Below are positions 422-8,164 of a stretch of 13,780 nt of DNA, one piece after another. Every line of letters begins with the position of its first letter. The first letter of the stretch is position 1. The stretch is from Candidatus Beckwithbacteria bacterium CG23_combo_of_CG06-09_8_20_14_all_47_9 (GTDB taxonomy: Bacteria; Patescibacteriota; Microgenomatia; UBA1400; CG1-02-47-37). The stretch lies in contig PCSQ01000133.1 of assembly GCA_002772455.1 (NCBI GenBank), forward strand, positions 1 to 13,780. Reading direction: 5' to 3'. The notes under the pieces are model-generated. The model saw only the letters and a program-made list of their open reading frames with translations. It was not told where the DNA came from and did no database searches. Both the position numbers and the translations under genes were made by a program.

Positions 422-1612
422 TTAACGCCAACTGGGCAACCAAAACCAATACTTTAACCACTGACTCGATAACGGTATAGCCGTATTGATCGGATAGAAA
501 AAAAGAAAACTAATAGTAATCAGTAATAAGTAAATCGTAATTAGTGGTTTGTTTTTAGTTTGCCAAAGACCCTGGGCCAAAATAACGGTCAAAACCGAAA
601 GCGCCGGCAAATAATGGTGCAAAAACATAATCCGGGGCGAGGCCAAAAACGGCAGCCAGAGGCCCAGGTAAGAAACCAGAAGATACCGGTAAGGACTCTC
701 CTTGAAAGCCTTCGAGGAGAGTCCTTGAAGGAGGGCCAAAATCCCACCCCAAAATATCACTGGGTTGCCCAAGTTATAAATGTTGGCAATTTTATCCGGC
801 AGGTACTGAACGTAAAACCAAACCGGCCGGATTAATAGCGGCCACTGCCAAGCCGCCGATTGATAACCATGGGTGGCAGTTAAGTGGATCTGATAATAAT
901 AAATTTGTTTATGCAGCTCGACAAATTGCTGCCAGATATGGCCTTGGAACCAAAACTGGAAAAAAGAAAGCAGATAGATTAATGGCGGAATAAAAACAAA
1001 ATACCAATAGGGACTCTCCCTGAAGGCCTTCAGGGAGAGTCCCTGAAGGAAAACTTGAAGGCCAAAAATCGGAAATAATAACACCGCCGAATGCTTGGTG
1101 GAAATGGCAAGTCCGGTAAAAACCGCACTCCAAAACCAACTCTTTTTATAGAAAAAAGCCAGCGCAAATAAAATAAACGTGGTGACAAAAATATCGTTCA
1201 TGGCAATCCGGGACATGGTCAGCTGCAAATTATCCAAACTGAACAGCAGGCCCGCCAGTAAAGCAATGTTGGTTTTTTTTGTTACTACCAAAGCTAAATA
1301 ATAAACCGCCGCCACGGCCAGCGTGCCGAATACCGCGGCGGGAAACCGCCAACCAAAACTGTTATCCCCAAAGACCAGCACCGAACCGGCTTGGAATAAC
1401 TTTGCCAAAGGCGGGTGCAGCCAATCATAGGCGGTATTCGGCTCCGGCGCCTGGGCGTAAACGTCAAACGCTTCCGGATTATTTTGGGAAAATGCCCGCA
1501 GAGACGGAACGTGATAAACTTCATCAAAGATATAACTTGACGGTATACCCAAACGCCAAAGCCTAAATCCAAAACTTATTATCAGCAGTAAAATCAGGTA
1601 GAATCTTTGCAT
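422..1612 (-). CDS. PMT-family (GT39) phospholipid-carrier-dependent glycosyltransferase
   Basis: This is a polytopic membrane protein of 396 residues. The N-terminal transmembrane segment is followed by the FDE motif (D30, E31), which matches the catalytic Asp-Glu pair in the first outer loop of protein O-mannosyltransferases. The family signature DWLHPPLAK (63-71) follows, then SPRIMFLHHYLP (325-336), and the protein ends in WLPSWR as bacterial PMTs often do. In this family a sugar, usually mannose, is moved from a polyprenyl-phosphate carrier to secreted proteins at the outer face of the membrane. The protein is complete but shorter than actinobacterial PMTs (roughly 500 residues). Residues 189-202 and 295-308 are two copies of an inserted peptide, LQGLSxKAFxESPY, encoded by a palindromic DNA repeat. 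The ATG is the complement of 1610-1612 and directly abuts the ATG of the divergent gene. No Shine-Dalgarno is visible. Acceptor and sugar are unknown. Confidence 0.88.
   Translation of the reverse strand: MQRFYLILLLIISFGFRLWRLGIPSSYIFDEVYHVPSLRAFSQNNPEAFDVYAQAPEPNTAYDWLHPPLAKLFQAGSVLVFGDNSFGWRFPAAVFGTLAVAAVYYLALVVTKKTNIALLAGLLFSLDNLQLTMSRIAMNDIFVTTFILFALAFFYKKSWFWSAVFTGLAISTKHSAVLLFPIFGLQVFLQGLSLKAFRESPYWYFVFIPPLIYLLSFFQFWFQGHIWQQFVELHKQIYYYQIHLTATHGYQSAAWQWPLLIRPVWFYVQYLPDKIANIYNLGNPVIFWGGILALLQGLSSKAFKESPYRYLLVSYLGLWLPFLASPRIMFLHHYLPALSVLTVILAQGLWQTKNKPLITIYLLLITISFLFFYPINTAIPLSSQWLKYWFWLPSWR
691..732. repeat. Palindromic coding repeat, copy A (in PMT gene)
   Basis: The core at 691-726 is a near-perfect 36-bp palindrome. 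Its 12-bp arms (691-702 AAGGACTCTCCT and 715-726 AGGAGAGTCCTT) match exactly, and two inner pairs are imperfect (703/714 and 707/710). Similarity to copy B continues to 732. On the minus strand it is read in frame as QGLSSKAFKESPY. It matches copy B at 36 of 42 positions. Four of the six differences form two compensatory pairs (692 with 725, 702 with 715). Confidence 0.85.
1009..1050. repeat. Palindromic coding repeat, copy B (in PMT gene)
   Basis: Positions 1009-1044 are a perfect 36-bp palindrome (half-site AGGGACTCTCCCTGAAGG), and similarity to copy A extends to 1050. On the minus strand it is read in frame as QGLSLKAFRESPY. It lies in the same gene and the same reading frame as copy A, 318 bp away. 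I saw no third copy in the window. Confidence 0.88.
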
Positions 1613-7329: not shown

Positions 7330-7427
7330 CCAAAATTACTTCCCAACCAAACCGCACTCATGAAGTCAAAAATAAACCTTGGTGCGACGGCACCCATAAA
7401 ACCAACGGCTTCAAATCGGATAAGTAA
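7326..7427 (+). CDS. Very short CDGSH-type iron-sulfur protein, apparently reduced
   Basis: The ORF has 33 codons, starts in an ATGA overlap with the FemAB stop and ends with TAA at 7425-7427. The C-terminal half, NKPWCDGTHKTNGF, is a textbook CDGSH signature with the last cysteine and the histidine ligand of a 2Fe-2S cluster. The usual C-x-C pair that supplies the other two cysteines about ten residues earlier is missing: the part before it reads NRTHEVK. Most CDGSH proteins have about 60 or more residues, so this looks like an internal in-frame deletion that joined the N-terminal start to the CDGTH half, or a decayed gene. As written it could bind a cluster only by sharing ligands in a dimer or with another protein. 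Whether it is expressed is unknown. Confidence 0.6.
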   Translation: MTKITSQPNRTHEVKNKPWCDGTHKTNGFKSDK

Positions 7428-7435
7428 TTTTAGAC

Positions 7436-7475
7436 TTGACAGTCATTTACCAACATGTTATGGTGTATACACTAT
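7436..7475 (+). promoter_or_regulatory. Promoter and likely operator of the toxin-antitoxin pair
   Basis: TTGACA (7436-7441) is a perfect -35 box. A 17-bp spacer leads to TATGGT (7459-7464) as the -10. Overlapping the -10 and the expected transcription start is the perfect palindrome GTGTATACAC (7463-7472), which extends to 7460-7475 with one mismatched pair. A further TACAC half-site lies at 7480-7484. Ribbon-helix-helix antitoxins bind such short inverted repeats and repress their own operon. This is the best-formed promoter in the window. The distance from -10 to the ATG at 7474 is 9 bp. Confidence 0.7.
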
Positions 7476-7740
7476 GAATTACACAATGGCGCGTGTTCAA
7501 GTTTATCTCGATCCCCAGGATGTGGATATTCTGGACACCATTGCCGAAAAAGTCAGAATTAAACGCTCCCAGATAATCCGTGATCTGACCAAAACAGTTG
7601 CCCTGCGTTATTCCCAAGTGGCCCAATTATTAACCGCTAAAAAATCCTTAAAAAATCCTTTACTGGAACTGGGCGGAATTGAAGTCAGCAAAACCGGCCG
7701 GGCCAGTATCAATGTTGATGAGATCTACTCCCAGACTTAG
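7474..7740 (+). CDS. Ribbon-helix-helix antitoxin (VapB-like)
   Basis: The protein has 88 residues from the ATG at 7474, or 84 from the ATG at 7486, which gives the family-typical MARVQVYL start. The N-terminal part fits a ribbon-helix-helix fold: a beta strand RVQVYL (7-12), helix A (about 15-26), a turn with VRIKRSQ, and helix B (about 32-46). Two such chains pair and put the strands into the DNA major groove. The C-terminal tail (about 55-88) is the likely toxin-binding part. Its gene overlaps the PIN toxin gene by 23 bp and follows a strong promoter with a palindrome, the usual autoregulated layout. An in-frame ATG at 7360 exists but lies upstream of the promoter and inside the CDGSH ORF, so it was rejected. 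No Shine-Dalgarno is visible. Confidence 0.85.
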   Translation: MNYTMARVQVYLDPQDVDILDTIAEKVRIKRSQIIRDLTKTVALRYSQVAQLLTAKKSLKNPLLELGGIEVSKTGRASINVDEIYSQT

Positions 7741-8164
7741 ACATAAGCGTATTTTTATCGACTCCAGTGCCTGGATTGCTTACATGCTAAAAGGTGAGCC
7801 TAATCATCAAGCAGTCTTTGATTATCTGACCGGTGAAATCCGTCTTAAAAGCAAACTTTTCACCAGCGATTATGTGCTAGACGAGACCTTCACCAGGTTA
7901 TTAAATACCCAAGGAATAACCACGGTAAAAAATTTTAAAACTCATTTGTCGCTGACAGAAAAACAGGGTCAATTATTGGTGTTTTGGACTGATGAAACAT
8001 TATTCACTCGATCTTGGCCATTGTTCCAAAAATTTGCCGGGCACAAACTATCTTTTACCGATGTCACAATTTTTACTTTAGTCAAAGATTTCAAGCTTGA
8101 CGAGGTTTTATCCTTAGACCAGGGCTTTAAAAAAGTCGGCCTCACCGTCCGGCCGCTACTGTGA
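7718..8164 (+). CDS. PIN-domain ribonuclease toxin (VapC-like)
   Basis: The protein has 148 residues with a complete PIN domain. The four acidic residues that bind the metal are present: D15 in IFIDSS, E56 in VLDETF, D115 in SFTDVTIF and D134 in LSLDQGF. PIN toxins cut RNA, often tRNA or rRNA, when the partner antitoxin is lost. The start is taken at the ATG at 7718, inside the end of the antitoxin gene in another frame; an ATG at 7712 is the alternative. The 23-bp overlap points to coupled translation. The RNA target cannot be predicted. An intact active site suggests a working toxin rather than a decayed one. Confidence 0.88.
   Translation: MRSTPRLRHKRIFIDSSAWIAYMLKGEPNHQAVFDYLTGEIRLKSKLFTSDYVLDETFTRLLNTQGITTVKNFKTHLSLTEKQGQLLVFWTDETLFTRSWPLFQKFAGHKLSFTDVTIFTLVKDFKLDEVLSLDQGFKKVGLTVRPLL

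Follow-up and report, generated by a model that had tools for sequence, protein, structure and literature searches.

The window, i.e. the whole stretch of 13,780 nucleotides that was analysed, is one contig of a Candidatus Beckwithbacteria genome, and contains a gene for a PMT-fold glycosyltransferase whose open frame is twice occupied by a short palindromic segment. Read with the results given below, the features of this gene are:

422..1612, minus strand: open reading frame of the PMT-fold glycosyltransferase, 396 aa, with Pfam matches PF02366, PF16192 and PF13231
691-732, minus strand: copy A, a REP dimer in frame within the PMT open reading frame
709..731, minus strand: copy A unit 1, REP unit CCTTCAAGG-ACTCT-CCTCGAAGG with one mispair, peptide LQGLSSK
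691..708, minus strand: copy A unit 2, inverted REP unit without its last 5 bp, peptide AFKESPY
1009-1050, minus strand: copy B, a REP dimer in frame within the PMT open reading frame
1027..1049, minus strand: copy B unit 1, complete REP unit CCTTCAGGG-ACTCT-CCCTGAAGG, peptide LQGLSLK
1009..1026, minus strand: copy B unit 2, inverted REP unit without its last 5 bp (GAAGG), peptide AFRESPY including the next base pair of codons

Elsewhere in the window, positions 1-420 hold a cysteine-rich open frame with an internal 56-bp repeat (82-137 and 223-278, 77% identity), and, as judged by eye, two UvrD-like helicase frames share the same 13.8-kb contig (4515-6293 and 8235-11207), of which the second looks nuclease-like in its C-terminal part, while overlapping small frames at 7360-8164 resemble a toxin-antitoxin-like pair of a ribbon-helix-helix and a PIN-domain protein.

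An earlier note on this DNA had described two 42-bp segments, 318 bp apart and identical at 36 of 42 positions, with a 36-bp palindromic core and a shared minus-strand frame, and recomputation bears out each of these points. The core of copy B (1009-1044) is a perfect 36-bp palindrome, that of copy A (691-726) is a palindrome with two mispairs (703/714 and 707/710), and both are read through in the 396-aa PMT frame. Four of the six differences between the copies do form two compensatory pairs that keep the stems (692/725 and 702/715 versus 1010/1043 and 1020/1033), and folding of the 53-nt RNAs of the two copies, which had been proposed as a check, returned strong hairpins (-23.6 and -33.2 kcal/mol; z -4.5 and -5.4). 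Palindromes of this kind (score >= 13, centre <= 8) arose in 1 of 300 Markov-shuffled windows, and chance is no explanation for the two; at the gathering score, Rfam had zero matches within the window.

Each segment is a head-to-head pair of a 23-bp REP unit, CCTTCAGGG-AGAGT-CCCTGAAGG, i.e. a REP dimer of the REPIN/BIME-like type, which is here coding. The inverted half of each copy is cut after CCTTCAGGG-AGAGT-CCCT, giving a dimer of 41 bp in all, and in both window copies the inverted pair forms one hairpin, as in a REPIN. The repeat had thus been rightly recognized as palindromic, but its size is neither 36 nor 42 bp: it consists of a 23-bp unit plus an inverted unit minus 5 bp. Translation of the unit in all frames places a TGA in a complete second unit read in the frame of copy B.

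In the protein, copy B encodes LQGLSLKAFRESPY (PMT residues 189-202) and copy A encodes LQGLSSKAFKESPY (residues 295-308). An AF2 model of PMT (mean pLDDT 92), with best PDB fold matches in Foldseek to Pmt4 and Pmt1-Pmt2, places both peptides between long helices, that of copy B in the order H174-189, 194-199, H203-215, and that of copy A in the order H284-297, 300-304, H308-323. We aligned 120 of 1037 PMT homologues found, comparing loop A in rows P0001 to about P0077, loop B in rows from about P0003 to P0120, and both loops together for most of P0001-P0031; the two loops are highly variable among these rows. Relatives at 70-82% identity have loops with LQGLSxKAFxESPY, QGRSLFTDKVRPFQ, KRSVLAKQGRT, GLSFANAKVSPY or GPFLRSKAGPY, or short loops, and the other loop peptides of the closest relatives are REP-like as judged from the peptides alone. 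The suggestion that the segments add peptide to loops therefore stands insofar as the peptides are in frame and in loops; how much they add is perhaps less than supposed, since in some relatives the loops differ by fewer than 14 residues. PMT homologues free of both peptides do exist, as the note had asked, and the PMT orthologues of two family members (G003 and G002 below; 60 and 57% identity) had zero REP-like palindromes at a score of at least 11. The same-genus genome G001 contributes the first part of PMT alone, at a contig end.

Dispersal was followed in four genomes of the family, the window's own (G000, 885 kb) and G001-G003. With up to three mismatches, the pattern CTTCARGGAGAGTCCYTGAAG matched the own genome 18 times forward and 18 times in reverse (0 for the reversed control), and was matched in all four family genomes, the own included; with each place counted once, there are 79 unit places (29, 22, 16 and 12), 20 places in the own genome holding AGAGT-centred units. 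The AGAGT unit is thus a short palindrome (20-50 nt) dispersed in many copies, as REPs are, and a dispersed palindromic family in this lineage, which the note had thought possible, is indeed present. The dimer GGACTCTCC-N14-GGAGAGTCC (fixed core, up to three mismatches) yielded nothing in the own genome besides the two window copies and was found in one of four family genomes and, allowing up to one mismatch, in one of 373 class genomes, each time the own; the dispersed unit is therefore the 23-bp monomer. A private duplication of the dimer had been our first reading, and was overturned once the dimer was split into dispersed monomers. A refutation by internal duplication fails as well, because there are both peptide-free PMT homologues and other genomic copies of the unit. 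Across 36 distinct units, 250 of 288 stem cells are Watson-Crick pairs (shuffle mean 232.8, maximum 247 in 2000), which is supporting but non-independent evidence for conserved pairing, because the matches were chosen for their likeness to a palindrome. Around 70 unit contexts, no position beyond the 25-bp unit exceeded 0.18 bits and no GTAG-like guide motif was found; the unpaired tetranucleotide that stands beside the stem in the GTAG and CGTC superfamilies is lacking. In a collection of 84,980 species, from which records near the own genome were possibly excluded, the exact unit occurred in three contigs, named Ca. Beckwithbacteria, Collierbacteria and Roizmanbacteria, all of which we take to lie within Microgenomates.

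Most of these units are coding. Open frames that run for at least 80 codons contain 17 of the 20 AGAGT-centred units found in the own genome (three in the window, three within RAYT genes), and the other three flank RAYT genes, so that the extragenic location of a REP in the literal sense does not apply to them. Some of these frames are perhaps not genes; those bearing a domain are PMT, RAYT, MutM, a PheT-like B3/4-B5 fragment, an NTP transferase and a metallo-hydrolase. Two phases of the unit are open (LQGESLK and PSGRVPE) and the third is closed by TGA (FRESP*). The use of open phases by intragenic units follows from the search itself, which looked within stop-free frames, and the phase bias, at first taken as evidence, was for this reason dropped as support. 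The closed phase is used by the second unit in PMT, which ends just before the TGA, and by a unit following one RAYT gene (RAYT b below), where it terminates the neighboring frame. Palindromes of other families lie in RadA, TsaD, a MiaA-like IPP transferase, and a fragment with a tRNA-ligase anticodon-binding domain. In samples of 80 to 400 kb or less per genome, intragenic palindromes per 100 kb numbered 12.8, 10.7, 3.2 and 5.8 in G000 to G003, and 4.9, 1.2 and 0 in three RAYT-free genomes; the density tends to follow RAYT presence, with overlapping ranges. When all DNA is counted, RAYT-bearing and RAYT-free genomes are not told apart by palindrome density, as the latter have hairpins between genes, presumably terminators.

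The own genome has seven genes with a Y1_Tnp domain (PF01797) above the Pfam cut-off, and PF01797 matches were found in 27 of the 37 genomes searched, the own included. For one of these RAYTs, the best Foldseek match of the AF2 model (mean pLDDT 82) was 4er8, a REP-associated tyrosine transposase bound to a REP hairpin, and a PDB sequence search with one RAYT returned nothing at E 0.1. The HUH motif, PNHxH, is invariant in all 16 aligned RAYTs, so that the motif and, in the modelled protein, the fold of TnpA-REP are both present. REP_Tyr_transpos was the sole NCBIfam match in 8 of 8 RAYTs, with scores of 34-44 bits where the cut-off is 80, and on account of these low scores we regard them as a divergent group.

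The RAYT genes usually carry the unit, or its counterpart in another REP family, both beside and inside their frames. G000 to G003 have 22 such genes (7, 7, 2 and 6), most of which have a palindrome a few bases ahead of the start and another at the stop, i.e. their cognate REPs. The gene that ties the window to this system is RAYT b:

G000, contig C149, 15212-15871: RAYT b, with the exact window unit inside at 15361-15383 (LQGESLK)

A further exact window unit follows directly past its stop, at 15873-15893; on its upstream side a REP was sought and not found. In 17 of the 22 genes, the frame contains an in-frame copy within 2 of 19 bases of the gene's own flanking REP, and the best internal match in the other five has 5 to 10 mismatches; reversed controls had 6 to 9 mismatches in all 22, and flanks of foreign families reached at best 4 to 6. 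The internal copies lie at two places, near residue 51 (e.g. LQGESLK) and right after the YIHxNP motif (e.g. TSSRVLEV, MEGSDPSI, MTRCDLVT), and these sites stay constant although the REP sequence changes from RAYT to RAYT. The sole outside control, E. coli K-12 rayT, has no internal copy of its own REP. A survey of 30 RAYT loci found an HUH frame in 20, of which 16 are from other families, and in 5 of these 16 (L122, L126, L128, L132, L142) an internal palindrome is, by eye, similar to the flanking one. Separately, three RAYT genes (L064, at 2412-2444; L154; L161) have their upstream REP between TTGAC and an ATAAT-like hexamer, and this operator-like position suggests that these RAYTs may control themselves.

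Orthologous sites in the four genomes were found occupied, empty, and occupied by something else. RadA site 1 holds GGAAGGGTCGGACCCTTCC in G000, CACCTCCGAGGTG-N11-CACCTCGGAGGTG in G002 and no palindrome in G003, and site 2 holds three different palindromes in these three genomes, so that, at the DNA level, one RadA site holds different palindrome families in different genera. The metallo-hydrolase has AGAGT-family units in G000 and G001 and none in G002 and G003; with RadA, it provides the occupied and empty orthologous sites that mark a mobile element. In MutM, G000 has an AGAGT unit, G001 and G003 share an element of 38 bp, and G002 is free of palindromes. The length change at such sites is often small (none between G000 and G003 at RadA site 1, two residues in the metallo-hydrolase), and the units therefore replaced host codons or underwent later trimming, which disfavors plain insertion and is our reason for keeping in-place copying as a bolder, less than even possibility. 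Aligned to solved structures, the REP-coded stretches of RadA and MutM align poorly, with no clean gap. Two further observations concern these genes. The 38-bp stretch, coding LTAFAKASAVEA, is identical at one MutM site in two genera (L243, in G001, and L244, in G003), whose MutM proteins share 79% and 62% identity with the G000 protein, and may be a further mobile repeat that is coding. A spacer of 11 bases separates the halves of other inverted dimers, CACCTCCGAGGTG-N11-CACCTCGGAGGTG and CACTCC/CACACC variants (L071, L045, L236, L077), which encode TSEV...TSEV or TPGV...TPGV in RadA, TsaD and other frames.

We conclude with considerable confidence that the two PMT segments are REP dimers, translated in frame in two loops of the protein, that originate from the RAYT/REP system of this Ca. 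Beckwithbacteria genome. How the second copy arose is a separate matter. The claim that the element was inserted twice is not established: the same 5 bp are missing at the same end in both copies, and this shared truncation suggests that one was copied from the other. A single truncated dimer may thus have entered one loop and reached the other by gene conversion or duplication, a course compatible with a REP origin and, in our estimate, only slightly short of an even bet. It would also account for the likeness of the copies over some 11 bp beyond the 42 bp (53 bp at 83%), and a single peptide family at both loops recurs in P0004, P0007, P0013 and P0014; against it, P0005, P0006, P0010 and P0011 have unlike families at the two loops, and selection for an open frame could favor the same truncation independently, because an intact second unit gives TGA. 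Strong stems and compensatory changes would also be expected if the hairpin were maintained because it serves the PMT mRNA or protein, e.g. in translation control or as a useful loop, but near PMT relatives have other sequences or none at these loops, the same AGAGT unit lies within unrelated genes, and its stems covary family-wide, so that we consider such a function improbable. An independent palindromic family like the Rickettsia RPEs, with no RAYT link, would likewise be peptide-coding, in frame and intragenic (PMC10969869), and the note had likened the segments to RPEs, as a kind that it did not know; such a family is very unlikely, as the window unit is identical to the REP inside and beside a RAYT gene that shares the genome, and measures 23 bp, or 41 bp as a dimer, against about 150 bp for an RPE. 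Mitochondrial byp elements are hairpins in open frames that the ribosome skips or that are removed, and the location of the present hairpins within open frames is all that recalls them: both window copies are free of stops in this frame, and the second unit breaks off just ahead of its own TGA, which would be needless under bypassing, and we give this reading next to no credence.

Returning to a RAYT/REP origin, we observe a unit that is dispersed, associated with RAYT genes and coding, with turnover of palindrome families at one protein site; the most natural account is that of a selfish palindrome, probably spread by its own hairpin-binding transposase. In such a scheme, the RAYT would process the REP unit as a single-stranded hairpin, as its HUH fold and the REP hairpin bound by its solved relative would suggest, and would paste or copy it elsewhere in the DNA. 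With about 85% of the sampled DNA in open frames, most landings would fall within genes, selection would retain those in loops and open phases, and the second unit in PMT, in the closed phase, would survive by stopping short of the TGA; the account requires no benefit to PMT. Counting against RAYT-driven spread are that the dimer is known from the PMT gene alone, that a guide motif was sought and not found, that the NCBIfam scores are below the cut-off, and that overall palindrome density does not track RAYT presence. As a tentative extension, which we hold to be possible rather than probable, the fixed loops of host proteins and the two places in the RAYT frame could be docking sites, where the present REP family replaces its predecessor, probably through single-strand copying rather than simple insertion; the transposase gene would then carry its recognition site as coding sequence, with site and enzyme changing together.

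The system shares with the known REP, BIME and REPIN elements and their RAYT/TnpA-REP genes, as described in PMC2817692, PMC3116915 and PMC8266576, short palindromes, inverted dimers, RAYT genes bordered by inverted REPs, an HUH transposase, and a REP and RAYT that diverge together. Flanking by two inverted REPs is given as the rule in PMC2817692, REPINs are described in PMC3116915, and E. coli TnpA-REP is reported to act on single-stranded REP hairpins in vitro (PMC8266576). Unlike these, the units here lack a GTAG tag, have a perfect or near-perfect stem with a 5-base centre, dimerize without a spacer and are mostly intragenic, at a copy number far below the hundreds of REPs in E. coli, and the RAYT frame contains its own REP, unlike that of E. 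coli K-12 rayT. Intragenic GTAG/CGTC REPs and dimers, peptide-coding and sometimes two per gene, have already been published, as have two Xanthomonas recB genes that differ in the REP found at roughly one site, and REPs overlapping transposase gene ends (PMC3733652). The REPs of that paper are mostly intergenic and tagged, and its sections 15 and 16 mention none in the interior of a RAYT open frame; it also equates RPE-4 and RPE-6 with intragenic CGTC repeats. Rickettsia RPEs, which we compared by description and not by sequence, are alike in being in-frame coding palindromes in genes, and differ in their size of about 150 bp, the description in PMC10969869 giving no RAYT link. Among the matches listed in a literature search, no paper was on REP/RAYT in Patescibacteria by its title and abstract. 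The features that appear to be new are the mostly intragenic location of the REPs, the presence of a RAYT's own REP within its coding sequence, and the turnover of families at fixed sites.

REPs are familiar as repeats outside genes, and to our knowledge the mechanism by which they spread is unsolved. In this small genome of a candidate phylum, they are mainly coding, genes for DNA repair and translation are among their hosts, and the gene for the transposase contains a REP of its own. With sites that are occupied, empty or re-occupied among orthologous proteins, the way in which REPs land can be tested directly, and REP landings are one route by which short peptides enter conserved proteins.
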